From positions 1 to 64,000 of the forward strand of contig PDZX01000013.1 of NCBI GenBank assembly GCA_002753185.1: DNA of 64,000 nt, given 5' to 3'. The position numbers and the translations under genes were made by a program. Of this stretch, positions 28,126 to 42,696 are shown piece by piece. Position 1 is the first letter of the stretch; each line of letters opens with the position of its first letter. The stretch comes from Magnetococcales bacterium WMHbin3 (GTDB lineage Bacteria > Pseudomonadota > Magnetococcia > Magnetococcales > Magnetaquicoccaceae). Under the pieces are notes generated by a model. It did not search any database. It had not been told where the DNA came from and saw only the letters and a list, made by a program, of their open reading frames with translations.

Positions 28126-29814
28126 ATGAACATTTTCAACCGATTATACATCTGGCAAAAATTCACCCTCGGCTTCATGATCATCGCCGGGTTCTTCATC
28201 GGGCTGGTCTTCGTCTATCAGACCGGGATGCACCAGGTCGAGCAGAGTTACGAAACCCTGATCTCCGAAGATTTCGCCCGCTTTTCCATCGGCTTCCAAC
28301 TCTCCCACTCCCTGGCGCAGATGCGGGACGTGGAGTACAACTTCCGCCTCTCCCCCAGCGCGGAACTGGCCGAGGATCATGAAAAATACTACAAAGAATT
28401 TTTGGAGAAACTGGGAAAACTCACCGAACTGGAAAAGAGCATCGGCGGCCAGGAGCCGGATCTGAAGGCGCCCAAAGGGATTCTCAAGCACATCCATGAC
28501 TACCGCGAAGCCTTTCTCGCCACCTTCAACGCCTGGCGGGAACAGGCCACCGCCAAGGCGAACGAGGCATTCGCCGAAAAAATGGAAGAGGCCAATCAGG
28601 CCATCGAGTTCCTGGTGGAGTACCATTTCAGCCAGGTCCGCAAGGACATGAAAAACGCCTCGCGCCAGGCCCAGCAGTATGGCCGGCACCGCACGCAACT
28701 GGCCTTCTCCCTGGCGATGGTCATGATCGTGCTGTTGGTCGTCATCGCCTTTTTGATGGTCAACAGCCTGGTCCATCCCATCACCAAGGTCACCAAGGCC
28801 ATGCTGCACGTGGCGGACGGCAACATGGAGTCCCAGGTCCCGGTGATCGGCAAGGACGAACTGGGACAGATGGCCACCATCTTCAACCAGATGGCCCTGC
28901 AATTGAAGTCGGCCCACGAGGGACTGCAGAGCGAACAGGAAAAACTGATGACCATCCTGCTCTCTGCCCGCGAGGGGATCATCGGCACCAACCGGGAGGG
29001 GGAAGTGGTGCTGGTCAATCCTGCGGCGCAACGGCTGTTGGGCAAGAGCGAGGAGCAGATCGTGGCCGGCGGGTTCCTCAACATCCTGGACGATCCCGAA
29101 TACGTGCGGCAATTCCTGATTCGTTCCGGCTACGACATGCCGGAAACCGTGGTCTTCAACCAGAAGGTCTTCAACTTTTTCGCCGCCTCCATCCGGGACA
29201 AGGGGGGGGCGATCATCGGCTCGGCGGCGCTGATCCGGGACGTGACCGAGGAGAAGAACCTGGAGCGGCAGTTGCGCAACCTCTCCAACACCGACGGCCT
29301 GACCAAGCTGATCAACCGCCGCCATTTCGACGAACTCCTCCAGGCGGAGTTCCAGCGCGGCAAGCGTTATGGCGTCGAGTTCGGGCTGCTGGTGTTCGAC
29401 GTGGACCATTTCAAGAAATTCAACGACACTTACGGCCACGACCAGGGGGATCGGGTCCTGCAGGCCCTCGCCGGGGCCATGAAGGGCGCCTTCCGGGATA
29501 TCGATTTCTGCTGCCGCTTCGGGGGCGAGGAGTTCTGCGTGATCGCCCCCAGCACCAATCTGTCGGGACTGCTCATCGCCGCCGAACGGTTCCGGGGCAA
29601 AGTGGAGGCGATGGTGGTGGACGGACTCAAGGTCACCATCAGCATCGGCGCGGTGGTCTATCCCCATCTCATTCCTGGGGCGCAGGGACCGGCGGAGATC
29701 TTCAAGGCTGCCGACAACGCGCTGTACCAGGCCAAGAAGGGGGGACGCAATCAGGTGTGCGCCGCCTCCCCTCCGGGGCAGGAGGCGCCACCCTCCACCA
29801 GCACGCCGGGTTAG
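28126..29814 (+). CDS. membrane diguanylate cyclase (sensor-HAMP-PAS-GGDEF)
   Basis: 562 residues. Membrane helix 1 (about 12-34), a periplasmic four-helix-type sensor, helix 2 (about 191-212), HAMP (about 212-265), PAS (about 280-385) and GGDEF (about 390-550). The active site GGEEF is at about 466-470. An RxxD inhibitory site (RDID) lies five residues before it, so product inhibition is expected. Makes c-di-GMP in response to an unknown periplasmic or PAS signal. First of three signalling genes on this strand. Confidence 0.92.
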   Translation: MNIFNRLYIWQKFTLGFMIIAGFFIGLVFVYQTGMHQVEQSYETLISEDFARFSIGFQLSHSLAQMRDVEYNFRLSPSAELAEDHEKYYKEFLEKLGKLTELEKSIGGQEPDLKAPKGILKHIHDYREAFLATFNAWREQATAKANEAFAEKMEEANQAIEFLVEYHFSQVRKDMKNASRQAQQYGRHRTQLAFSLAMVMIVLLVVIAFLMVNSLVHPITKVTKAMLHVADGNMESQVPVIGKDELGQMATIFNQMALQLKSAHEGLQSEQEKLMTILLSAREGIIGTNREGEVVLVNPAAQRLLGKSEEQIVAGGFLNILDDPEYVRQFLIRSGYDMPETVVFNQKVFNFFAASIRDKGGAIIGSAALIRDVTEEKNLERQLRNLSNTDGLTKLINRRHFDELLQAEFQRGKRYGVEFGLLVFDVDHFKKFNDTYGHDQGDRVLQALAGAMKGAFRDIDFCCRFGGEEFCVIAPSTNLSGLLIAAERFRGKVEAMVVDGLKVTISIGAVVYPHLIPGAQGPAEIFKAADNALYQAKKGGRNQVCAASPPGQEAPPSTSTPG

Positions 29815-29817
29815 GTC

Positions 29818-32169
29818 ATGATCCATCTCAATCGCATGCAAATCAGCCACCGCATCACGGCTGGCGTCACCATCCCCTTGCTTCTGCTGATCGTCGTGGG
29901 CGTCTGGAGCTGGACCGCCAGCCACGGCGTGCTGGAGGAAGTGGACCAGATCCGCAACGAACGGCTCAACCGCGTTCTGCTGGCGCAACGCCTGGGCAAG
30001 GAACTGCTCAAAATGCAGTACTATCTGACCGAAGTCTCCATCAACAAGGAGGAGAGGGGAGAGACCGATCCCTTCATCGGGGCAGAGGAATATTTTAAAA
30101 GTATTGTTAAAAACTTAAACGAATACAGAATCGCCTACCAAAACGACCACAACGAGAAAAACCGGCAGGCGGTTGACGAAATCCTTGCCAAGATTGAAAA
30201 TTTTTACAACATCGGCAAGAAGATGACCCAGGCCTTCCTTGCGAATGACAAGGAAGAGGGGTTCCGGCTCAAGCATGCCTTCGACGAGGAGGCGGAGTAT
30301 ATCGATTACTACTTCGTGCCACTCATGACCCAGGAGGAAGAGACGATCCAGGAGGAGATGACCGGCCTGGAAAAGAGCATGTCCAACCTCAAGCGGGGAC
30401 TGGTGGTGGTCATGCTGCTGGCGCTGACCTGCTCCGCGCTGGCGGGCTGGCTGATCGTCCGCTCATTGGTAAAACCGCTCTCCCTGATCGCGGGTGCCAT
30501 GCGCATCGTCTCCGGTGGCGAACTGGGCCATCGGGTCCCGGTGATCGGGCGGGACGAATTGAGCGAAATCACAACCATTTTCAACAATATGCTCGACAAT
30601 CTCGCCCGCAGCGCCATGGTGACCATGGTGCAGTCGGGCAATGTGAACGCCATTATGCACGAACAGGCGCGCCTGAACGAAACCCTGAACCGGAACTCCC
30701 TGGAAAACATGCGCCTGGCCCGACATGTGGTGAGCGAAAACGACCAGTTGGACGCCAAGGTCCATCGCCTGCAGGAGAGCATCACCCAGGCCAACGACAA
30801 CCTCACCCGCATTTCCGGCAGCATCGACCGGCTGCTGGAAGACAACGTGCAACCGATCGCCGCCAAGGCGTTGTCCGCGTCGCACAACGTCGAAGGGATG
30901 GTCGCCGCGTCCCGCACCATGAACTCCCACATCAACGAGGTGTACGACAACCTGCAACGGGTGGACGGCTCGGTGCGCAACGTGGGCGAAGAGGTGGGCG
31001 ACTTGTCGAACGGTATCACGGAAGTGCGACGCCAGTGCCAGGATGCCTCGGCCAGATCCAACTCCGCCTCCCTCCAGACCAAGAAGTCGCTGGAGGTGAT
31101 GGCGAACCTCGCGGAAGAGGTGCGGGCCATCGCCGATATCGTCGAAATGATCAACCAGATCGCCGATCAGACCAAAATGCTGGCCCTGAACGCCTCCATC
31201 GAGGCGGCCGGCGCCGGCGAGGCGGGCAAGGGATTCGCCGTGGTGGCCAACGAGGTCCGGGAACTGGCCCTCCAGACCGCCAAGGCCACCCTGAACATCT
31301 CGGATCTGGCCGTCGGAATCCGCGCCAGGGTGGGCGAGGTCTCGGAGGCCACCCACCAGCTCGACGCCATGATCGGCGGGATCGCCAGGATCAACGACGC
31401 CATCGAGGTGAGCATGGACGAACAGTCCCTCTCCGTCGAGACCATCATGGAGAACATGCGCCGGGTGGGACAGGCGACCGGCGACGTGAAGGAACATGCC
31501 GAACGGCTTCTGGAGGCAGCTCGCGAGGTGGCGCACTCCGCCTCCGAGGCGGAGCGGCTCACCGTGAGCATCGCCTTGGACGCGGGCGAGGCGGCCACGG
31601 CGGTGGGGTTCGTGGCCGACAACAGCCGCGAGGCCTCCGGCCAGGCGGAGTCGGTGCGCCTGTTCGCCAGCGACATCTACGCCGCCTCCATCCAGGTGCA
31701 AAGACACATGCTGGTCTCGATGAATCTGACCAACCTGGTGCGGGGCCTGATCGAATACGCCGGCCTGTTGACCCGCTACGGCCAGACGGTGGGAGACGCC
31801 CTGGAGGAGTCGGGACGCGCCCTGCGCACCGGCAAGACGCCGTTGACGCTCCTGGAGATCAAGAGCAGCCATCTGCGGCTGGTGGAATCGGCACGTCTGG
31901 CCCTGTGCGGCGCGCGGCCGGAGTCCCCCCCTGCGCTGACGGCGACCCCGACCTGCCCGTTGCGGGATACCCCGCTGCACGCCCACCCGGAAGTGAGCGC
32001 TGCGGATCGCCGTTTCCACGAGCAGGCCGCCGCCTGTCTCAGCGCGCTTCAGGATGCCACGCGCGAGGGCCTCCCCACGGAAACCCACGCAACCGCAGCG
32101 CAAGAGATGGAAACCACCCTGATGGCCTTGTTCGCGGCTTTGGACAAGGCCAACGCCAACGCCTCGTGA
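29818..32169 (+). CDS. methyl-accepting chemotaxis protein with C-terminal CZB-like domain
   Basis: 783 residues. Membrane helices at about 13-33 and 195-214 flank a roughly 160-residue helical periplasmic sensor, then a HAMP domain. The MCP signalling hairpin ([18 protein letters not shown] at about 447-464) is intact. The C-terminal region (about 640-750) has the spacing of a zinc-binding CZB domain: H in SSHLRLVES (about 683), C in CPLRD (about 715), H in RRFHEQ (about 732). It starts 3 bases after the cyclase stop, so the two are probably coupled. Confidence 0.88.
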
Positions 32170-32182
32170 GCCAGCCGACGCC

Positions 32183-34171
32183 ATGACCTCCTCCGACGAA
32201 TTGGGCAGCGCGACCCTCCCCCTGCAAGCCCTGATGGATCATCTGCTGCGCGACGGCATGCAACAAGGCACGCTGGAAGCGCGCAACGCCTTCACGCTGC
32301 TGGAACAGACCCTGCGGGAGATCCTGGCCGCCCAACTCGACGAACGGAAACGGGTTCTGGCCGCGCTGGGCGAGATCATCGGCCTGGCCCTGCTCGACAT
32401 CACCCTGGAGGAGAAACTGCAACGCGCCCTGGATTGCATCCTCGCCGTGCCGAGCGTGTACGGCCTGGATCAGGGGTGTCTCTTTCTGGTGGACGAACCG
32501 GGCCGCCTCTTGCGCATGGTGGCGCAACGTCATCTGCCGCCGGAACTGACCACCCTGTGCCGGAGCGTGCCCTACGGCGCATGCCTGTGTGGCCGGGCCA
32601 TGGACGACACGCAACCGGTCCTGTTCCACCCCTCCATCGACGCGGCGCACGACCGGGAACACCCCGGCATGGTTCCCCATGGTCACACCCTGTTCCTGGC
32701 AAGGGATCTGAAGACCGATCGCCCGCTGATGCTGGTCAATCTCTACGTGCGCAACCACTGCCGGGAGGACCCGCGCGCCCATTTTCTCATTGACGCCCTG
32801 GCCATGGCCCTGTCGGTGTTGCATGCCCTGCACGACACCCAGGAGGCGTTGCGGGGCTTCGCCTTCCGGGATCCGGTCACCGGGCTGGCCAACCGCCGCA
32901 TCTTCCAGGACCGGCTGGATCAGGCCCGGCGCCGGGCGATCCGCAACCATGAGTCCTTCATGGTCGTGGCCCTGGGGGTGGACCGTTTCGGACGCATCAA
33001 CGAATCCCTGGGACGCGGCGTCGGCGATCAGGCGTTGCGCCTGCTGGCCACCCGTTTCAAGGAGACCATGCGCGCCGGCGACACCCTGGCCAAGGCGGAT
33101 GGGGGGGAATTTCTCTTTTTGATGTTCATCCGCAATGTACGCGAGATCATGTCGCCGGTGCAAAGGATCCGTGCCCTGATCGCTGACCCCCTCCCCCTGG
33201 AGGAACGCGAGTTGCGGGTGACCGTCTCCATCGGCATCAGCCTCTTTCCGGACGATGGGGAACAACTGCTGGAGAAGGCGCAGTTCGCCCTCAAGAGCGC
33301 CAAGGAGCAGGGACCAGGGCAGTTCCAGGTCTTTTCGAGCCAGGCGCACGCCAAGACCCTGGCCATGCTCGCCCTGGAGCAGGATTTGCGTCAGGCCGTC
33401 GTCCGGCGGCTGCTGGTGCCCCATTACCAGCCACAGATCTCTTTGGCCTCCATGAAGATCATCGGGTTCGAGGCCCTGATCCGCTGGCCCGACCCGGAGC
33501 AACCCGACCGCATGAGGGCCTTTCCCGATCAATTCATCCCCCTGGCCGAGGAGACCGGGTTGATCGTCCCCCTGGGCGAACAGGTGCTGCCGCAAGCCTG
33601 CCGGGATCTGAAGGCGTGGCACGATCTGGGATACCGGGAGCTGCACATGGCCGTGAACCTTTCGGCGCGTCAGTTCGCCAGCCCGACGCTGCTTGCGACG
33701 ATCACCCGTGCGCTCGCCGACTCCGGCCTGCCACCTCGCCATCTGGAGTTGGAGATCACCGAGTCCCAGGTGATGCTGGACAAGGAGCGGGCCAGGGAGA
33801 TCCTGAGCGCGATCAAGGAGCTGGGGGTGCAACTGGCCCTGGACGATTTCGGCACCGGCTATTCCTCGTTGTCGATTTTGCAGCAGTTCCCGTTCGACCG
33901 CCTCAAGATCGACCGCTCCTTCGTGATGAACCTCCCGACGCAAGCCTCCAATCTCAACATGATCAACACCATCATCCAGATGGCGCGCGGTCTGCAATTG
34001 CTGGTGACCGCAGAAGGGGTCGAAAACCAGGATCAGCAGGACAAACTCAAGCTCGGCGGTTGCGATGACGTGCAGGGCTGGTTGTACAGCAAGGCGCTCC
34101 CGGCCGATCAGATTCCCGGTCTGCTGGCCAAATACAATACATCCAATACTTATGAACCTATAAAGGAATAA
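32183..34171 (+). CDS. GAF-GGDEF-EAL c-di-GMP phosphodiesterase
   Basis: 662 residues. A GAF domain (about 60-215) precedes GGDEF (about 225-390) and EAL (about 405-655). The cyclase signature is degenerate: KADGGEF at about 303-309 instead of xGGDEF, so synthesis is unlikely. The EAL catalytic residues look complete: EALIRW (about 429), NLSARQF, ELEITES, DDFGTGYSS (about 553), KIDRSF, AEGVEN and VQG. It likely degrades c-di-GMP under GAF control. It lies 13 bases after the chemoreceptor. Confidence 0.92.
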   Translation: MTSSDELGSATLPLQALMDHLLRDGMQQGTLEARNAFTLLEQTLREILAAQLDERKRVLAALGEIIGLALLDITLEEKLQRALDCILAVPSVYGLDQGCLFLVDEPGRLLRMVAQRHLPPELTTLCRSVPYGACLCGRAMDDTQPVLFHPSIDAAHDREHPGMVPHGHTLFLARDLKTDRPLMLVNLYVRNHCREDPRAHFLIDALAMALSVLHALHDTQEALRGFAFRDPVTGLANRRIFQDRLDQARRRAIRNHESFMVVALGVDRFGRINESLGRGVGDQALRLLATRFKETMRAGDTLAKADGGEFLFLMFIRNVREIMSPVQRIRALIADPLPLEERELRVTVSIGISLFPDDGEQLLEKAQFALKSAKEQGPGQFQVFSSQAHAKTLAMLALEQDLRQAVVRRLLVPHYQPQISLASMKIIGFEALIRWPDPEQPDRMRAFPDQFIPLAEETGLIVPLGEQVLPQACRDLKAWHDLGYRELHMAVNLSARQFASPTLLATITRALADSGLPPRHLELEITESQVMLDKERAREILSAIKELGVQLALDDFGTGYSSLSILQQFPFDRLKIDRSFVMNLPTQASNLNMINTIIQMARGLQLLVTAEGVENQDQQDKLKLGGCDDVQGWLYSKALPADQIPGLLAKYNTSNTYEPIKE

Positions 34172-34175
34172 GTGT

Positions 34176-34514
34176 ATGTTAAAATTTCTCAGCCGAACCG
34201 TGGTGGCAATGGGTCTCGCCTCGCTTCCCGGCGTGGCGCATGCGGAGCTGGATGCCGCCACGGCCCTGGAGGTGCTGAAGCGCAACGACTGCACCAAATG
34301 CCACTCCATTCAGAAATCGAAGAACGGCCCCTCCTACACCAAGGTTTCCCAAAAATATAAGGGAGACGCTCAGGCCGAAGAAAAATTATTCAAGCACCTG
34401 ACATCCAATCCAAAGGTCAAGCTGGCGGACGGCACCGAGGAAAACCACAAAAAGACCGACTTTGACAATAACGACCAGCTCAAGGATTTCATACGCTGGA
34501 TTCTTTCTCTTTAA
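34176..34514 (+). CDS. periplasmic monoheme c-type cytochrome
   Basis: 112 residues. A Sec signal ends AHA, then the heme site CTKCH at about 39-43, and a class I cytochrome c C-terminal helix ends DFIRWILSL. No methionine follows the heme site, so the usual Met ligand is missing; His in EENHKK is a candidate replacement. It directly precedes the decaheme gene (TAATG, one-base overlap), so it probably shuttles electrons to or from that complex. Confidence 0.88.
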   Translation: MLKFLSRTVVAMGLASLPGVAHAELDAATALEVLKRNDCTKCHSIQKSKNGPSYTKVSQKYKGDAQAEEKLFKHLTSNPKVKLADGTEENHKKTDFDNNDQLKDFIRWILSL

Positions 34515-35518
34515 TGAGCTTGAGTACCCCGATGTCAAAAATACTTTCAGCATTGATGGTTCTATTTGTCCTGGTATTGCCCGCCTCCGCCGAGGAACCG
34601 CGCAAGGACGCGGTCCTGCGCGGGGATGCCGAATGCACCTTCTGCCACGACGAAGAGGACTCCACCTCCCTGTTGTCCATCGGCCGCACCCGGCACGGGA
34701 CCCTGGCGGACAGCCGGACACCGACCTGCGTCGGTTGCCATGGTCCCAGCAAGGCGCACATGAAGGAAAAATTGCCAGGCTCGGAAAAACGCCCCACACC
34801 GGACATCACCCATGGCCGGCGCGCCCCCGCGTTGCGCCCCGATGCGCGCATCGACGAGGATTTCGCCAATTTCAAGGGGACATCCAGTCCCGCCGAGGTG
34901 ATCAACAAGGCCTGCCTCGCCTGCCATCAGGGGGAGAAATTGATGTTCTGGTCCGGCAGCGCCCACTCCAGCCGCAACGTGGCCTGCACCAACTGCCACG
35001 AGATCCACACCGATCATGACCGGGCACAAGACAAACTCAGCCAGCCCAAGGTCTGCTTCGGCTGCCACAAGAGCCAGCGCTCCATGTTCAACCGCCCCTC
35101 GCACCACCCGGTCCCGGAAGGGAAGATGACCTGTTCCAACTGCCACAATCCCCACGGCTCGGCGGGACACAAATCCCTGCGTTGGGATACGGTCAACGAG
35201 ACCTGCTACCAGTGCCACATGGAAAAACGCGGGCCGTTCGTTCACAGCCATCCCCCGGTATCGGAAAACTGCCTCAACTGCCACAACCCCCACGGGACCA
35301 CGGTGCCCGCGCTGCTCTCCCACCGGCCGCCCTATCTGTGCCAAAGCTGCCACAGCGACACATCCCACCGGGGACAGGTGGCGGGCCTGCCCAACGGACG
35401 CACCGTCAACGCGGCGGTAATAGGTTCCCTGGCCCGTGGCTGCTTGAAATGCCACACCAACATTCACGGCGGCAACAGCACCGAGAACGCCACCAGCGCC
35501 GGACGGTTCCGGCGCTGA
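34514..35518 (+). CDS. mtrA: periplasmic decaheme cytochrome, MtrA/PioA/DmsE family
   Basis: 334 residues. A signal peptide (cleavage near PASA/EE) and exactly ten CxxCH sites are present (CTFCH, CVGCH, CLACH, CTNCH, CFGCH, CSNCH, CYQCH, CLNCH, CQSCH, CLKCH). Length and heme count match MtrA/PioA, the electron wire that plugs into an outer-membrane MtrB barrel. The start could be 34514 or 34532; the latter gives a more typical signal peptide. The barrel gene follows after 25 bases. Confidence 0.93.
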   Translation: MSLSTPMSKILSALMVLFVLVLPASAEEPRKDAVLRGDAECTFCHDEEDSTSLLSIGRTRHGTLADSRTPTCVGCHGPSKAHMKEKLPGSEKRPTPDITHGRRAPALRPDARIDEDFANFKGTSSPAEVINKACLACHQGEKLMFWSGSAHSSRNVACTNCHEIHTDHDRAQDKLSQPKVCFGCHKSQRSMFNRPSHHPVPEGKMTCSNCHNPHGSAGHKSLRWDTVNETCYQCHMEKRGPFVHSHPPVSENCLNCHNPHGTTVPALLSHRPPYLCQSCHSDTSHRGQVAGLPNGRTVNAAVIGSLARGCLKCHTNIHGGNSTENATSAGRFRR

Positions 35519-35543
35519 CCCAAAACCAGGGAGAGAGACGACC

Positions 35544-37700
35544 ATGAAGACCCCATATCGCCCATCCACCCTGTCTGCCCTGACCGGCCTGCTCGCCATC
35601 GCCATCTGCCCCGGCCTGGCCTGGTCCGAGGAGAAACCGTTGCCGGAGATGAGTCCCACCGCCGCGCCCTACACCAAACCGGAGAGTTCCCTCTCCGTGG
35701 GGGCCGGTTATCTGCTCGGCGACCGTCAGCAGTTGGGCATCTTCGATGCACGGGATCACACCCGCCCGGAACTGCTGCTGGACGCCAATATCGTCCGGCG
35801 CGACGACGCCACCGGCACCTGGAGCCGGGCCATGGGCCGCAATCTCGGCCGGGACGACAACCGGGAAGCCACCCTGGAGATGGAGCGTCAGGGCATGTGG
35901 GGGGTACGTCTCGACTACAACGAAATCCCCGCCCTGGCCCCCTATACCGCCAACTCCAAGACCGACGGCCTGGGGACCACCACACAGATCATTCCAAAGA
36001 GCGCCATTGCCAACAACGGCAACACCTACCATATTGAAACCAACCGGGAACGGGTGACATTCAACACCTTTCGCACGTTCAATCAAAAACTCAAATTTAA
36101 CCTGAACTTCCGCAACGAGACCAAGGAGGGCACCCGTCAATGGGGCCGGGGCGGCGCGCCGGAGTTCGTCCTGGAGCCGGTGGATTGGACCATGCGCCAA
36201 CTGGAGCCTTCGGTCAGCTACCAGGGACGCGACCTGCAATGGCAGTTCGGCTACAGCGGGAGCTGGTACCACAACGACAACAACCTGGTGGACACCCGCC
36301 TGCAAGGGGACAACCCCGCCACGCTGGCCAACCACTACTACCTCTCCCTGCCCCTGGACAACGAGGCGCACCAGATCCATCTGTCCGGCGGTTATCAACT
36401 CCCGGCGGATACCCGCATCACCTTCAAGATCGCCCATGGCCGCGCCTTGCAGAACGAACACCTCCCCACCGCCGACATCGCCGGCCTGGGCCGCACTGGC
36501 GGTCTTGCCAGCCTGGAGGGCCGGGTGGACACCACCCATCTGCTGCTGGGCCTCTCCTCCCGCCCCCTACCGGATCTGCACATCAACGCCAAACTTCGCT
36601 ATTACGACGAGGCCGACAAAACCCCCGCCTGGCTGGTGGCCCAAACCGCCACGGCCCAGGTCCACTCCACCCCGGCCTCGCTCACCACCTATACCGGCCT
36701 GCTGGAGGCGAGCTACCGCCTCCCCTTCGACACCACCGTCACCGCCGGCGTGGAACACAAGAAACAGGACCGCGCGGTCCCCTTCGGCAACGACCGCAAT
36801 GGCGACGGCATGGACGACGAACGCTTCGTCCCCTGGCGCAACCGCCTGGACGAAACCACCTGGCGCCTGCAACTGGCCCGTCACCTTTCGGAGACCGTAA
36901 ACGGCACGGCGAGCGTCGAACATGCCGTGCGCACTGGTTCGAGCTTCGTGGACTCCCCCAACATCCTGGGCACCACGCAAGGCAAGATCGTCCCGTTCTT
37001 CATCGCCGACCGGGAGCGGGACAAACTGCGCATCGCCCTGGACTGGCGTCCCATCGAACGACTCGGCGTGCAACTCAACGCCGAAAACGCCCTGGACCAC
37101 TACGACGACCAGACCCACCCCTACGGCATGAAAAAGGGCCATGCCCAACTCTATGCGCTGGATCTGGACTTCGCCCCGACCGACAAGTGGCTGTTGACGG
37201 CCTGGTACGCCTACGACATCAATCGCACCTGGCAGGACTCCGGACGCTGGAACACCCCCACGCAACACGAGGCGGACAAGAGTTCCCTGCTCACCGACAC
37301 CGGCTCCACCCTGGGTCTGGGGGTGCGCAACCAGTGGAACGAAAAACTCAAGCTGGGGGCCAACTTCCAATGGACCCGCACCACCTCCTCCTTCGATGAC
37401 ATGGTGACCACCGATCCGAAGAGCGCCGTGCCGGCCTATCCGGCGGGGGTCACCCCCCTGCCGACCATCGTCTCGCCCATGACCCGGCTGAACGCCTTTT
37501 TCGAATACAAGGGGCTGGGACCGGGCATGCTGCGTTGGGACTATATCCACGAGCGATGGGAGAGCAACGACTGGAACTGGAAATTCAGCGACGGGACGCC
37601 CTTCATCTACGGGACCACCACGGACAGCACGCAAATGGCCACCCAGGACCGGCAGACTGCGGATTTCATCGGAGTCCGCTACACCACCCGCTTCCAGTGA
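35544..37700 (+). CDS. mtrB: MtrB/PioB-family outer-membrane beta-barrel
   Basis: 718 residues. A signal peptide (cleavage near GLAWS/EE) precedes many amphipathic strands with alternating aromatic residues, ending in a C-terminal strand VRYTTRFQ. Domains such as GAGYLLGDRQQLGIFDARD match MtrB/PioB. The barrel surrounds the decaheme protein and spans the outer membrane. The stop overlaps the GTG start of the next gene. No outer-surface MtrC-type cytochrome is encoded beside it. Confidence 0.92.
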   Translation: MKTPYRPSTLSALTGLLAIAICPGLAWSEEKPLPEMSPTAAPYTKPESSLSVGAGYLLGDRQQLGIFDARDHTRPELLLDANIVRRDDATGTWSRAMGRNLGRDDNREATLEMERQGMWGVRLDYNEIPALAPYTANSKTDGLGTTTQIIPKSAIANNGNTYHIETNRERVTFNTFRTFNQKLKFNLNFRNETKEGTRQWGRGGAPEFVLEPVDWTMRQLEPSVSYQGRDLQWQFGYSGSWYHNDNNLVDTRLQGDNPATLANHYYLSLPLDNEAHQIHLSGGYQLPADTRITFKIAHGRALQNEHLPTADIAGLGRTGGLASLEGRVDTTHLLLGLSSRPLPDLHINAKLRYYDEADKTPAWLVAQTATAQVHSTPASLTTYTGLLEASYRLPFDTTVTAGVEHKKQDRAVPFGNDRNGDGMDDERFVPWRNRLDETTWRLQLARHLSETVNGTASVEHAVRTGSSFVDSPNILGTTQGKIVPFFIADRERDKLRIALDWRPIERLGVQLNAENALDHYDDQTHPYGMKKGHAQLYALDLDFAPTDKWLLTAWYAYDINRTWQDSGRWNTPTQHEADKSSLLTDTGSTLGLGVRNQWNEKLKLGANFQWTRTTSSFDDMVTTDPKSAVPAYPAGVTPLPTIVSPMTRLNAFFEYKGLGPGMLRWDYIHERWESNDWNWKFSDGTPFIYGTTTDSTQMATQDRQTADFIGVRYTTRFQ

Positions 37701-39568
37701 TCTCACGTCTTTTATTATTACTGTTTTTTTTCCCCTGGATGTCGTCGGTCGGCCTGGCCGACGACAACGGGGCCTGTTGGCGCTGTCACGATGGCGGCCA
37801 GGAGATCGTCGCCAGCGGGGAGAAAAAACAGCCGCTCCATGCCATCCCCCCGGAACGGTACGCGCAAGGGGTGCATGGCCGCATGGCCTGCCGGGAGTGC
37901 CACACGGGCATCGTCAACCTCGATCCCCCGCACCAGACCGACACGGCGACGAAAATCGACTGCGCCATCTGTCACGAAAAAAGGACGGAGGAAAAGGAAG
38001 CGCGGATCAGGCGCAACATCGACCTCTACCGAAAATCGTTCCACGCCCGCCCCAATCCGGACGACCCCAACTTTCCCAACGCCACCTGCCACGAGTGCCA
38101 CGACACCCATTTTTTCAATGTCCCCCCCGGCGACCGGGCCACACCGGGCCATGCGGCATGGCGCGCCGGCATCCCGGAGTTGTGCGGCAAGTGCCATGAC
38201 GACCCTCTGGAGCGCTTTTCCGCATCGATTCACGGCGTCGAACTGTCGCGCAAAAACAATCCCCGCGCCCCGACCTGCACGGATTGCCACGGCATACACG
38301 ACATCACCGGATCGCACATTCCCGCCTTCACCCTGGGGGCCACGGAAAACTGTGGAAAATGCCATCCGCGCAATCTGGCCAGCTATCGCCGTTTTTACCA
38401 CGGCCAGGTCAACCGGTTGGGGGCCACCGCCACCGCCAACTGCTTTCACTGTCATGACAGCCACGCCACCCGTGCCGTCAAGGACCCCGGGGCCACGGTC
38501 CATCCAGGCAAGCGTCTGAAAACCTGCCAGAAATGCCACGACGGCCAAAACCGCCCGCTGGCGACCCCTGGTTTCACCTCCTTCACGCCCCACGCCCACG
38601 CCGATGATTTCGCCCGTTACCCGGCAATGTGGATCGCCTCCCGTCTCATGCACGGCCTGACCTGGGGGGTGATGCTCTTTTTTCTGCTGCATTCCGCGCT
38701 CTGGTTCCATCGGGAATGGCGGGAACGCCCCCCCGCGCCGCGCCCGGCCCCATCGGGACGGCATGTGCGACGCTTCCCCTGGTTCTGGCGGGTGGCCCAT
38801 CTGCTCTTCGCCCTGACGGTGATGACGCTGATTGCGACGGGCATGACCCTCCACCATGCCCACGCGCCGTGGGCACCGCTCCTGGCCAAACTCATGGGCG
38901 GACCGGCCAACATGGGCTGGATCCATCGCGGCGCGGCTTTGCTGATGGCGAGTCTCTTTCTTCTGCATTTGCTGGTTCTGCTGCCGCGCCTGATCCGCGA
39001 CAAGCATTTCACCTGGTTCGGACCCGACTCCCTGCTGCCCAACCGGCGGGATTTCCGGGAATGTGGGGCCATGTTCCGCTGGTTTCTGGGCCGTGGCGAA
39101 AAACCGCGTTTCGAGCGCTGGACCTATTATGAAAAATTCGACTACTGGGCGGTCTTCTGGGGCATGGCCCTGATCGGGGGCAGCGGAGTGCTGTTGGCCT
39201 TTCCCCATGTGGCAGGCGCGTATTTCGACGGCTGGGTTTTCAACGTCGCCCTGCTGCTGCATGGCGAAGAGGCCTTTCTCGCGGCGGTTTTTTTGTTTAC
39301 CATTCACTTTTTCAACAATCACTTTCTCCCCTCTCGTCTGCCGCCGCCGGAGACCGTGATCTTCACCGGCAGCGACGCCTTGGAGAAATTGCAAAAAGAA
39401 CACCCGGCCTATCATGCGCGTCTGCTGGCCAACCACGCGCTGGAACGCCACCTGGTCCCGCCCCCCGCGCGGATGCTGGTTCGGGGATCGCAAATCCTCG
39501 GACTGCTGCTCATCGGCTGCGGGCTGATCCTGCTGCTTCTGACCCTGCACGGAGCGTTGACGGCATGA
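37697..39568 (+). CDS. nine-heme cytochrome c fused to a membrane cytochrome b domain
   Basis: 623 residues from GTG at 37697, which overlaps the mtrB stop. Earlier codons are inside mtrB, and later ATGs would cut off the signal sequence ISRLLLLLFFFPWMSSVGLA. Nine CxxCH sites (CWRCH, CRECH, CAICH, CHECH, CGKCH, CTDCH, CGKCH, CFHCH, CQKCH) fill about 25-285. About six membrane helices with paired histidines follow (about 310-620), of the hydrogenase/formate dehydrogenase cytochrome b type. It would pass electrons between the quinone pool and the periplasmic decaheme protein. Confidence 0.9.
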   Translation: MISRLLLLLFFFPWMSSVGLADDNGACWRCHDGGQEIVASGEKKQPLHAIPPERYAQGVHGRMACRECHTGIVNLDPPHQTDTATKIDCAICHEKRTEEKEARIRRNIDLYRKSFHARPNPDDPNFPNATCHECHDTHFFNVPPGDRATPGHAAWRAGIPELCGKCHDDPLERFSASIHGVELSRKNNPRAPTCTDCHGIHDITGSHIPAFTLGATENCGKCHPRNLASYRRFYHGQVNRLGATATANCFHCHDSHATRAVKDPGATVHPGKRLKTCQKCHDGQNRPLATPGFTSFTPHAHADDFARYPAMWIASRLMHGLTWGVMLFFLLHSALWFHREWRERPPAPRPAPSGRHVRRFPWFWRVAHLLFALTVMTLIATGMTLHHAHAPWAPLLAKLMGGPANMGWIHRGAALLMASLFLLHLLVLLPRLIRDKHFTWFGPDSLLPNRRDFRECGAMFRWFLGRGEKPRFERWTYYEKFDYWAVFWGMALIGGSGVLLAFPHVAGAYFDGWVFNVALLLHGEEAFLAAVFLFTIHFFNNHFLPSRLPPPETVIFTGSDALEKLQKEHPAYHARLLANHALERHLVPPPARMLVRGSQILGLLLIGCGLILLLLTLHGALTA

Positions 39569-40275
39569 TGAGATTTTTTTTACTGTTTTTGTGTCTGACA
39601 TGGCTTGCGAACGCGCCGCCGGCCCATGCAGGGGTGGCGGACGCCCTGCGCCGGGCCGCCGAAAAGGGAGACATCTCGGCGCAAAACACCCTTGGCGTGA
39701 TGCACTACCTGGGCAGAGGAGGCGTGTTGCAGGATTTCCAGGAATCGATAAAATGGTTCCGCCGGGCCGCCGACAAGGGCAACGCCGCCGCGCAATCCAA
39801 CCTGGGGGTGATGTACCTGCGCGGGGAAGGGGTCGCCAAGGATCTCCAGGAAGCGGTCAAATGGCTGAAGCTGGCGGCCGGCCAGGAGAACGCCACGGCG
39901 CAAGCCAATCTCGGCATGCTCCATTTGCGCGGCGAGGGGGTCAAGCAGGATTTCAAGGAGGCCGTCCACTGGTTCCGGCGCAGCGCCGGTCAAGGCAACC
40001 CGGCGGCGCAGGCGAAGCTGGGCGATATGGCCCTGCGCGGTCAGGGCATGCCAAAAGATATCGTCACCGCCCACTTCTGGTTCAACCTGGCGGCCAGCAA
40101 GGGCAACAAGGCCGCCCTCCGCATGCGCGACGCCCTCACTGCCAAGATGACCCCGGAGCAGATCACCCGGGCACAGGAAATGGCCAAGAACTGGAAACCC
40201 ACCCCCGGCAAAGCCACCCCCAAACCTTCCTCACCCTGGCGCAAGCCCGACATACCCGCCGAACAGGCGATTTGA
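39565..40275 (+). CDS. Sel1-repeat periplasmic protein
   Basis: 236 residues. A signal peptide (cleavage near AHA/G) precedes about five Sel1-like repeats (about 30-190) of the form AQxxLGxMYLRGEGVxxDxxEAVxWxxxAA, and a Lys/Pro-rich tail. It overlaps the cytochrome gene by 4 bases, so it belongs to the same operon. A scaffolding or assembly role for the cytochrome complex is inference. Confidence 0.88.
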   Translation: MMRFFLLFLCLTWLANAPPAHAGVADALRRAAEKGDISAQNTLGVMHYLGRGGVLQDFQESIKWFRRAADKGNAAAQSNLGVMYLRGEGVAKDLQEAVKWLKLAAGQENATAQANLGMLHLRGEGVKQDFKEAVHWFRRSAGQGNPAAQAKLGDMALRGQGMPKDIVTAHFWFNLAASKGNKAALRMRDALTAKMTPEQITRAQEMAKNWKPTPGKATPKPSSPWRKPDIPAEQAI

Positions 40276-40470: not shown

Positions 40471-42696
40471 GTGAGCGATATAAACTATTCAAAGACAATT
40501 AATTATAAAAGAGAACACGCCCACCTGCGAGAATGGCCCGCTGATCGCGAATTATTCAAACTGTTACGGCAGGGTCAAGTCCCCTCCCCCCAAGATCGCA
40601 TCGGTCTGGCAATATCGGGAGGCGGCATCCGTTCCGCCACCTTCGGCCTGGGCATCGTGCAATATCTCGGCAAGCTCGGTCGCTACCGGGAATTCGATTA
40701 TCTCTCCACGGTCTCGGGCGGCGGGTTCCTGGGATCCTGCCTGACCTCCTGGTATTCGGCGACCAACTCTGCCAATCCAGCATTCCCATTCGTGCATGAC
40801 AAGAACGAAGAATCGCTTCCATTCCAACATTTGCGTAATTTTTCCAACTATCTGGCCCCATCAGGCAGCCTGCTCGACAACGCGCGCATGCTGGCCATCT
40901 TCATTCGGGGCCTGTTCTTCAACATGGTTCTGGTGCTGCCGTTCATTCTGTTTCTGGCGGCGGCGGGCATCACCTACCTGCCGGGTCTCAGTACCGATTT
41001 TTTTCTGACCAAATGGCTTACTATCATCATTGTGGTACTATTCACGTTGATACATATCGTCTTTGCCGCGTCCAGAGGCAAAGACATCGCCACCTGGAAA
41101 CAACGTGATAGGGCTACCAAGTGGATCATGGGGGGCTTGTTGGTCCTGTTAGGCGTGATCTTCTTCTTGGAACTGCAACCGCATGCCATGGAGCTTTTTT
41201 TCTGTCTGCACGGAAAACTGGAAGAACATAGCGGCAAACTGGTCAGCGTACTGGGAACCGCCGCCAGCAGCGTCTATCTCTTAATAAACAAAATCAAAAA
41301 GAGCGAGGAGGGTACATCCGAGGGCATTCCGTTCGCCAAATACGGCGCTCTGGCTATCGCGACCATTGTGGTTCCTCTGTTCTTCTGGAGCCTGACCCTC
41401 TGGCTGATGATGCCCGGCCTGCACTGGGACGCCTGTTCCATACACATCACCCACAACGACAACTCGCACCCCTACCTGCAGGACCTCACGATTGCGGGCG
41501 CGGTGCTCTTCGGGTTCGGCATATTCTTCAACATCAACAAATACTCCCTGCATGTCTTCTATCGGGACCGCCTGAGCCGCGCCTATCTGATCAAACCCGG
41601 CCAGAAGGCGCCAGGGCACAATGACACACTGAAACTCAGCGAGATGGAGTTCAAGAGCAAGGATGCCCCCTACCATCTGATCAACGCCGCCGTGAACGTC
41701 ACCCGCACGGACGGCATTTCCGACACTGAGGACGATTACGTCATGCGCGGACGCACGGCGGATTTCTTTCTGTTCAGCAAGGAGTGGGTCGGCTCGGCAC
41801 TGACCGGCTATTGCAACACGACCACCATGGAGAAAGCCGACCCCTGGCTCAATCTGGGCACCGCCATGGCCATCTCCGGCGCAGCCTTCTCGCCCAACAT
41901 GGGCACCTTCACCATGAAGCCCCTGACGGCATTGATGACTTTTCTCAATATCCGGCTCGGCTACTGGCTGCCCAATCCAAAGTGCTTCGAAAAACGTCCT
42001 CCAGGATATGCGTGGCAGACAATCAAGGAGTTATGGAAAAATCTCAGTCATTTCAATTTAATAGACGCAGGTACATCACTGACAAAATTGATCAATATAC
42101 CATACTTCCTCATGACGACCTGTAAATATTGGTATCCGCCGCGCAAATATCTCTTCAACGAGGCCTTTTCATCCCTGTCGCCCCACGAGGACGCCTTCAT
42201 CAACGTCTCCGATGGCGGACACATCGAAAACCTGGCCATCTATCCGCTTTTGCAAAGAAAATGCCGCCTGATCGTGGCCCTGGACGGCGAGGCGGACCCG
42301 AAGATGCAATTCGAGGGACTGGCCGACACCATCCGCCTGGCGCGCATCAATCTCAACGTCCACGTCGAGATGGAGACCGCCGAGATGCAAGATCTGCGGG
42401 ATGGCAAACGTCATTACGCCACAGGAAAGATCAAATACTACGAAAACGAAATCGAACGCGTTGGGACCCTGATCTACATCAAGGCATCTCTCTGCAAAAA
42501 AGAGGATGTCGATATCCAACACTACAAGGCGTGCCACCCGGAGTTTCCCCACGAAACCACCCTGGACCAGTTCTTCGACGAAAAACAGTTCGAGGCCTAC
42601 CGCTCCCTGGGCTATCATGTGGCCAAAGAGGTGTTTTCCACCGGGTATGGCATCCAGACAAGCAGCACGCCAGCACCGTTACCCGCAGTCTCTTGA
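40471..42696 (+). CDS. membrane-associated patatin-like phospholipase
   Basis: 741 residues from GTG at 40471, with AGAGAGGAAAAG just upstream. A patatin-type oxyanion loop SGGGIRSATFGLG (about 49-61), nucleophile Ser in STVSGGGFLGS (about 82) and catalytic Asp in SDGGHIENLA (about 580) form the Ser-Asp dyad. About five membrane helices lie between them (about 140-365), an unusual insertion that would anchor the enzyme in the membrane. Probably a lipid acyl hydrolase. It stands alone; the 195 bases upstream hold no gene. Confidence 0.85.
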   Translation: MSDINYSKTINYKREHAHLREWPADRELFKLLRQGQVPSPQDRIGLAISGGGIRSATFGLGIVQYLGKLGRYREFDYLSTVSGGGFLGSCLTSWYSATNSANPAFPFVHDKNEESLPFQHLRNFSNYLAPSGSLLDNARMLAIFIRGLFFNMVLVLPFILFLAAAGITYLPGLSTDFFLTKWLTIIIVVLFTLIHIVFAASRGKDIATWKQRDRATKWIMGGLLVLLGVIFFLELQPHAMELFFCLHGKLEEHSGKLVSVLGTAASSVYLLINKIKKSEEGTSEGIPFAKYGALAIATIVVPLFFWSLTLWLMMPGLHWDACSIHITHNDNSHPYLQDLTIAGAVLFGFGIFFNINKYSLHVFYRDRLSRAYLIKPGQKAPGHNDTLKLSEMEFKSKDAPYHLINAAVNVTRTDGISDTEDDYVMRGRTADFFLFSKEWVGSALTGYCNTTTMEKADPWLNLGTAMAISGAAFSPNMGTFTMKPLTALMTFLNIRLGYWLPNPKCFEKRPPGYAWQTIKELWKNLSHFNLIDAGTSLTKLINIPYFLMTTCKYWYPPRKYLFNEAFSSLSPHEDAFINVSDGGHIENLAIYPLLQRKCRLIVALDGEADPKMQFEGLADTIRLARINLNVHVEMETAEMQDLRDGKRHYATGKIKYYENEIERVGTLIYIKASLCKKEDVDIQHYKACHPEFPHETTLDQFFDEKQFEAYRSLGYHVAKEVFSTGYGIQTSSTPAPLPAVS

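Follow-up and report, generated by a model that had tools for sequence, protein, structure and literature searches.

The 64,000-nt stretch analysed here (contig PDZX01000013.1, positions 1 to 64,000, assembly GCA_002753185.1 of Magnetococcales bacterium WMHbin3; hereafter the window) carries at 34176-40275 five co-directional genes for a one-heme cytochrome, a ten-heme cytochrome, a porin, a nine-heme/cytochrome-b protein and a Sel1 protein. Judged by sequence, the first four are an mtoD-mtoA-mtoB-mtoC cluster in content and order, as in Fe(II)-oxidising Betaproteobacteria. We read it as an Mto-type electron conduit of magnetotactic Magnetococcales that lies in one gene run with a dedicated sensory module and usually works in the direction of electron uptake, and give this reading a probability of about 0.6. 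It builds on gene content, spacing and families, on a single Magnetococcales clade in three trees and on the co-occurrence and linkage of the sensory genes with the cluster; from these we infer wiring, direction and sensory role. Loci (L numbers) and genomes (G numbers) are named where needed, and published work is cited by way of excerpts.

Gene content and protein families

Along the five genes we count 1, 10, 0, 9 and 0 CxxCH motifs. The total of 20 and the families agree with a preliminary description of this region, which had reported five genes and 20 sites. For the two multiheme proteins the counts are far above chance (shuffle means of 0.10 and 0.05, maximum 2, 2000 shuffles each). The window outside 34176-40275 holds only one more CxxCH in stop-to-stop frames of at least 80 amino acids (aa). 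The intergenic gaps from mtoD to the Sel1 gene are -1, 25, -4 and -4 bp. The extent given in the preliminary description proved too short, i.e., it missed three co-directional signalling genes at 28126-34171 in the same run (Table 1). These are spaced by 3 and 13 bp, and the GGDEF-EAL gene ends 4 bp before mtoD. The whole of 28126-40275 presumably forms one operon.

Above the curated cut-offs of Pfam and NCBIfam we find PF00034, TIGR03508, PF11854, TIGR03509 and the Sel1 family PF08238. On MtoA, TIGR03508 (DmsE-family decaheme) scores 257.5 bits against a cut-off of 192.2. The best solved-chain match of the monoheme protein is 4xxl_A (E 2.9e-23, residues 6-112, i.e., near full length), which we take to be MtoD of Sideroxydans lithotrophicus ES-1. 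MtoA matches 6r2q_A (E 2.6e-54) and MtoB matches 6r2q_B (E 2.4e-19), presumably from the Shewanella MtrCAB structure; the molecule names printed for the 6r2q chains differ from MtrCAB and look wrong.

For mtoC, the start is GTG 37697, overlapping the porin stop, where the mechanically called open reading frame had begun at 37535. A search by sequence at E 0.1 returned no relative of MtoC in the PDB. Its structural model was built from eight sequences and has a low mean predicted local distance difference test score (pLDDT) of 57.8; only the membrane half was used. In its C-terminal half the model has six long helices; in a structural comparison it fits chain C of formate dehydrogenase N best (1kqf_C, E 0.0085, probability 1.00). 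Among 40 homologs, H368, H410, H522 and H537 are present in all, and first cysteine and histidine of each of the nine CxxCH are kept in 39-40. Counting plain CxxCH motifs, 29 homologs have 9, nine have 8, and one each has 7 and 10. That is, MtoC has the CxxCH domain, the six C-terminal helices (in a low-confidence model) and the conserved heme-b histidines of the CbcL/MtoC/MtrH family, described as an N-terminal CxxCH domain followed by six C-terminal transmembrane helices (PMC6295460). The inner-membrane module that the preliminary description saw fused in one polypeptide is indeed a c/b-type fusion; as a new kind of protein we rejected it, since that family had already been described (PMC6295460). 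The Mto traits are present as well, i.e., an MtrA/DmsE-family decaheme cytochrome beside an MtrB/PioB porin, an MtoD-type monoheme protein and a CbcL-type fusion.

Table 1. Genes of the run from the signalling genes to the Sel1 gene, with positions in the window
Feature	Position	Strand	Basis and remarks
Diguanylate cyclase, 562 aa	28126..29814	+	N-terminal sensor, HAMP, PAS, GGDEF (Pfam); 4HB_MCP_1 below cut-off, weakly four-helix-bundle-like
Methyl-accepting chemotaxis protein, 783 aa	29818..32169	+	4HB sensor, HAMP, MCPsignal (Pfam)
GGDEF-EAL protein, 662 aa	32183..34171	+	Pfam; GAF match below cut-off
mtoD, periplasmic monoheme class I cytochrome c, 112 aa	34176..34514	+	PF00034; 4xxl_A match
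mtoA, decaheme MtrA/DmsE-family cytochrome, 334 aa, 10 CxxCH	34514..35518	+	TIGR03508; 6r2q_A
mtoB, MtrB/PioB outer-membrane porin, 718 aa	35544..37700	+	PF11854, TIGR03509; 6r2q_B
mtoC, nine-heme domain and FdnI-like six-helix cytochrome b, 623 aa	37697..39568	+	CbcL/MtoC/MtrH family
Sel1-repeat protein, signal-like N-terminus	39565..40275	+	PF08238; overlaps mtoC stop

A Sel1 gene directly after mtoC is found only in the window and in the sister genome G001 (locus L028); L053 has a 43% identical homolog, some 6 kb upstream of its mtoD. Since its position is not conserved, we rejected the Sel1 gene as a core part and treat it as accessory. Downstream of the mto cluster, Pfam identifies a patatin-like phospholipase at 40471-42696, beyond which follow genes that by eye resemble the biotin synthesis genes bioB, bioD and bioA.

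Phylogenetic placement

We computed quick maximum-likelihood trees for MtoA, MtoB and MtoC (and likewise for the sensors) with midpoint root and support from the Shimodaira-Hasegawa-like approximate likelihood ratio test (SH-aLRT) only; as to the direction of cassette transfer they are unrooted. The MtoA tree has 97 rows, with ten duplicate loci and rows of fewer than 8 CxxCH left out. The 45 rows of the MtoB tree all exceed 550 aa and 120 bits. The MtoC tree has 40 rows, one of which (L044_x10085) is another kind of protein, an octaheme one, and has a very long branch.

The copies from Magnetococcales group together in a single clade in each of the trees, supported by an SH-aLRT of 100 (12/97 rows for MtoA, 11/45 for MtoB, 12/40 for MtoC), for which a single origin of the cassette in the order would fit best. 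The nearest supported set of MtoA comprises L057, L062, L108, L109, L110 and L111, four of which are labelled with mtoD and/or mtoC nearby. For MtoB it comprises L057, L060, L061, L064, L109, L110 and L111, with 2/7 so labelled. The nearest set of MtoC has eight rows, seven of them beside mtoAB; the eighth, L088, comes from a genome with mtoD-mtoA elsewhere. By title, the rows of these sets belong to Betaproteobacteria, Gammaproteobacteria or genomes from the order of a Sterolibacterium metagenome-assembled genome (MAG), and the gene order of L111 is exactly D-A-B-C.

Elsewhere in the MtoA tree are the Shewanella-like clusters, which carry one or two large ten-heme cytochromes, and the L156 copies from a gene run with a molybdopterin oxidoreductase. 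The check by MtrA phylogeny that the preliminary description had proposed thus puts the window apart from both and near betaproteobacterial clusters. Magnetococcales MtoC relatives that are unlinked to MtoAB take separate branches, mostly beside an octaheme cytochrome.

Two side observations concern mto clusters outside the order. Divergent genes of some 440 and 485 aa recur in L105, L111, L121 and L131; in L111, their first residues resemble the starts of a response regulator and a membrane sensor kinase. L058 (CAMAXP010000007.1) holds a cluster of mtoD, a four-heme gene, mtoA and mtoB in a MAG titled Bordetella parapertussis, a title that an environmental MAG may have been given by mistake.

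Host and distribution in the order

The window genome is a 4.6-Mb assembly of 157 contigs in which no 16S gene was detected. The magnetochrome domain PF18509 is above cut-off in 48/48 genomes of the order compared with 0/14 controls; the host is therefore very probably magnetotactic. A contig scan gave 34 loci, none titled as a characterised iron oxidiser named in the cited papers. The nearest MtoA among them (95% identical) is in a Magnetococcales MAG (L048), and eight further loci are from Magnetococcales.

MtrB-type porins occur in 14/48 genomes of the order, i.e., 12 of the mto type and two (G013, G017) of another type. The 12 genomes with an mto cluster are spread over seven families. All 12 have mtoD beside the cluster; it precedes mtoA in ten genomes and lies downstream of mtoC in the other two. 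In 10/12, mtoC adjoins mtoB; a contig end intervenes in G004, and mtoC is on another contig in G030. For G003, contig L053 was taken as the upstream half of the locus (G003:C218) given the position of mtoA at its end. Some genes were hidden behind antisense frames by the gene picking (e.g., mtoB and mtoD of L028) and were checked separately.

Related modules were seen in the order too. The other MtrA/MtrB type is found in L102 (G013) and in L103 and L163 (G017); in L102 it adjoins a four-heme c-type protein and a 1271-aa protein, with no mtoC or mtoD in the stretch. L040 and L042-L047 hold another MtoC relative (39-43% identical) paired with an octaheme cytochrome, which was assigned to PF13447 Multi-haem_cyto in both loci scanned; homologs of mtoA and mtoB are absent from the stretch. 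By its sequence, this pair appears to be a different quinone-linked multiheme module. A possible link between conduit and magnetosome genes came up in a single genome. On contig G036:C25 (L036, L167, L168), mto cluster and chemoreceptor share the contig with a MamE-like magnetochrome-domain protease, whose gene lies about 8 kb from mtoC, and a cation-efflux protein is encoded beyond it.

No report of a Magnetococcales mto cluster was found in the literature searched, with supplements and subscription papers outside the search. The sole paper found to name both 'Magnetococcales' and 'MtoA' cites, in its excerpted text, Magnetococcales for magnetosome genes. In the main text of two papers on magnetotactic genomes, 'cytochrome' occurs in neither, 'Mtr' not in PMC5955933 and 'MtrA' not in PMC7602337.

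Proposed wiring and direction of electron flow

Solved MtrAB relatives suggest that MtoB is an outer-membrane barrel which MtoA would fill, its ten hemes crossing the outer membrane. From its family and conserved histidines, MtoC is predicted to span the inner membrane and to link nine periplasmic hemes via b hemes to the quinone pool. MtoD would carry electrons separately within the periplasm, perhaps towards a high-potential acceptor. At the surface, the conduit probably ends in MtoA, because no MtrC/OmcA was found, i.e., the OmcA/MtrC family TIGR03507 is above cut-off in 0/48 genomes of the order. Matches far below the cut-off occur in 18/48 genomes, and the best score in the window genome is 26.1 bits against a cut-off of 209.3. 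The idea of a conduit from quinone pool to surface without MtrC/OmcA, already put forward in the preliminary description, is upheld by this, and membership in MtrCAB was rejected for want of MtrC. The window genome holds other multiheme genes, including a NapC-type protein and a C67 cluster with an 11-heme protein, such that another surface cytochrome is possible. That cluster, L098 (G000:C67), comprises several c-type cytochromes, two NHL-repeat proteins, a peptidyl-prolyl isomerase (PPIase) and the 11-heme cytochrome of 840 aa.

Our best guess for the direction is uptake, with Fe(II) or minerals that contain it as the likely electron source where oxic and anoxic zones meet. In its favour are the presence of MtoD, the absence of MtrC and several Mto clusters among the nearest relatives. 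Alternatively, the conduit could serve mainly for export, i.e., for respiration of Fe(III), Mn or electrodes that needs no outer MtrC, a use that has been argued for in other magnetotactic bacteria with MtrAB. Two members of the MtoC family, CbcL and MtrH, do belong to reducers (PMC6295460), and MtrAB without outer cytochrome is described for magnetotactic Bdellovibrionota as well as for Magnetospirillum AMB-1, which is there called an iron reducer (PMC13200544). On the other hand, mtoD and/or mtoC accompany several of the nearest relatives, in the surrounding supported MtoA set no row out of 25 is labelled with a large MtrC-like neighbour, and OmcA/MtrC stays below cut-off throughout the order. 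We consider export a possible usual direction, with the odds clearly against it.

A number of points weigh against the uptake conduit as we read it. MtoC relatives occur in Fe(III) reducers as well as Fe(II) oxidisers with no diagnostic feature, as far as the excerpts of PMC6295460 go, and a published tree is described as lacking a clear MtoA/MtrA separation (PMC10734462). Since neither MtoC/CbcL/MtrH nor MtoA/MtrA can be separated in these accounts, sequence does not decide the direction. The ES-1 MtoD is stated to interact with neither MtoA nor ImoA, its possible partner being a high-potential acceptor (PMC13390432), which renders the MtoD transfer step doubtful. Our trees include no named, characterised MtoA and disagree with one another on how the betaproteobacterial rows are related; for two AB-linked clusters (L066 and L130), moreover, the MtoC is not part of the nearest set. 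The MtoC model is of low confidence, as given above. For the gene run, no promoter or terminator signals above chance were found. The RuBisCO large subunit is found in 0/48 genomes, so any autotrophy would need another route.

The sensory module

By eye, the cyclase motif reads GGEEF and that of the GGDEF-EAL protein DGGEF, with EAL intact. Cyclic diguanylate (c-di-GMP) is made by GGDEF domains, for which GGEEF is an active form of the motif and DGGEF a degenerate one, and is broken down by EAL domains. The GGDEF-EAL protein is thus likely a c-di-GMP phosphodiesterase, such that cyclase and GGDEF-EAL protein are expected to be maker and breaker of c-di-GMP. Together with the chemoreceptor, this pair would most likely steer swimming and attachment to where the conduit can work.

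Homologs of the cyclase sensor are found in the mto loci L028, L164, L053, L030, L036 and L034. Those of the receptor sensor are in L028, L164, L036 (L167 is on the same contig), L038, L033 (two), L037, L032 and L104; of these, the L038 proteins and one from L033 resemble cyclases bearing a receptor-type sensor. Full-length GGDEF-EAL homologs are in L028, L164, L053 (two) and L038. At E<=1e-8, neither sensor is found in the Magnetococcales loci L039-L047, L098-L103, L163, L168 and L169, in the pieces of mto genomes on other contigs or contig ends (L029, L031, L035) or in the loci from outside the order (L057-L078, L105-L162). Taken together, a receptor or cyclase of these subfamilies lies within about 5 kb of mto genes in 12/12 mto genomes (in G003 presumably, via L053). 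The arrangement varies, i.e., sensory genes are upstream and co-directional, downstream, convergent or divergent.

We also ran a profile built from eight receptor sensors on all 48 genomes. The scores split into 11 matches of at least 287 bits and a remainder of at most 149. The high matches fall in 9/12 mto genomes compared with 0/36 others (Fisher p 1.3e-7, for genomes that are related), and all but one of the 11 share a contig with the mto cluster. This test is partly circular, because 8 of the 9 genomes supplied the profile through their mto loci. Leaving one out, with close pairs held out together, the mto-linked sensors score 211-328 bits; 17 of 18 sensors from elsewhere, in mto-bearing and mto-lacking genomes alike, score at most 146, these 18 being hand-chosen genome-wide matches away from mto loci, mostly from the top of the list.

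The other side of the sensory evidence is as follows. When the genomes that supplied the profile are left out, the co-occurrence is reduced to 1/4 vs. 0/36 (p 0.10). The eighteenth of the sensors from elsewhere, the 587-aa L179, scores about 300 bits and is in the mto genome G026 but off the mto contig. The mto genomes G003, G016 and G018 have the cyclase type only and lack the receptor type, and distant relatives of the receptor sensor are present in 45/48 genomes. In addition, the genome-wide search covered the receptor sensor only, the cyclase-sensor subfamily being compared across loci.

The sensory genes could accordingly be neighbours by history that hitchhike in one transferred block and are no functional partners. 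They could have arrived with the cluster, their distant relatives are common in the order, and the profile was built from mto loci. Against this, the linkage is present in several arrangements across 12 genomes, two sensor types recur with both cyclase and receptor outputs, and the betaproteobacterial mto loci searched are without these sensor subfamilies. We hold mere hitchhiking to be unlikely.

Other known conduits

A PioABC-like conduit of photoferrotrophs, which shares the MtrA/MtrB superfamilies, is very improbable: the eight genes and the patatin gene give no match to a high-potential iron-sulfur protein (HiPIP; not sought genome-wide), and MtoC and MtoD are present instead; the MtoA tree, for its part, included no named PioA. 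A DmsEF-type conduit to an extracellular reductase of dimethyl sulfoxide (DMSO) or iodate is even less credible, even if TIGR03508 carries the name of DmsE, given that no reductase adjoins the cluster, that DmsA/YnfE (TIGR02166) exceeds its cut-off of 777.7 in 0/48 genomes and that the MtoA tree places the window away from L156. Matches of TIGR02166 to molybdenum enzymes occur in 47/48 genomes; the best one (602.5 bits) is in G015, which is without mto cluster, and the window genome reaches 131.7. Membership in either system was rejected, with neither reductase nor HiPIP beside the cluster. The PioAB-like or reduced-reductase interpretation of the preliminary description gives way to an mtoDABC make-up, and the DmsEF placement with a reductase elsewhere, which it had named as its own counter-case, did not turn up as far as the trees and the 48 genomes go.

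Significance and comparison with known systems

The conduit is of a known kind, in a host for which no report was found; what is new is that it is steadily paired with a chemoreceptor and c-di-GMP genes of its own. A tentative idea beyond this is that of a self-steering conduit, i.e., the Mto operon might encode the receptor and the c-di-GMP switch that bring the cell to its donor, making magnetotaxis, energy taxis and mineral oxidation one behaviour. Pairing receptor and conduit might enable the cell to locate minerals and stay attached to them. Magnetotactic cocci are subjects of studies on navigation in oxygen gradients. If the finding is true, their iron-mineralising lifestyle would be tied to an electron route at the cell surface, and a genetically defined receptor-conduit pair would be at hand for testing how extracellular redox partners are sensed, which is an open question in electromicrobiology and chemotaxis.

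With Shewanella MtrCAB, the window shares the MtrA and MtrB homologs (6r2q chains), but it is without MtrC/OmcA, has no CymA in the cluster and takes a separate MtoA branch. The betaproteobacterial mto cluster likewise has decaheme MtoA, porin MtoB, CbcL-type MtoC and MtoD clustered (PMC6295460). Set beside the species of that paper by their description, the window differs in its magnetotactic Magnetococcales host and in the chemoreceptor and c-di-GMP genes within the run. MtoAB-MtoD-ImoA of S. lithotrophicus ES-1, a pathway linked to the oxidation of Fe(II), smectite and magnetite (PMC10734462, PMC12016527), is alike in MtoD (the 4xxl match) and in the type of MtoA and MtoB. At the inner membrane, ES-1 uses the tetraheme ImoA (PMC13390432), whereas the window has a nine-heme cytochrome b fusion.

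For the sensory part, a close comparison is Esn of Geobacter sulfurreducens, which consists of the methyl-accepting chemotaxis protein EsnA, the CheW EsnB, the CheA EsnC and the diguanylate cyclase EsnD, and whose chemoreceptor and cyclase are needed for growth on electrodes (PMC5585712). Chemoreceptor plus cyclase is the common feature; unlike the receptor of the window, EsnA has a GAF domain and, by that account, no putative periplasmic domain, and esnA, esnBC and esnD are in separate places (PMC5585712). In Shewanella, the receptor mcp_cache and the genes for extracellular electron transfer are both needed for gathering on minerals (PMC5789149). Its sensor domain is another one, and its gene lies away from mtr (SO_2240 vs. 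SO_1776-1779; PMC5789149). That is, as far as the excerpts of PMC5585712 and PMC5789149 tell, the receptors of Esn and mcp_cache are encoded outside the conduit's own gene run, whereas in the window the receptor gene lies inside it.

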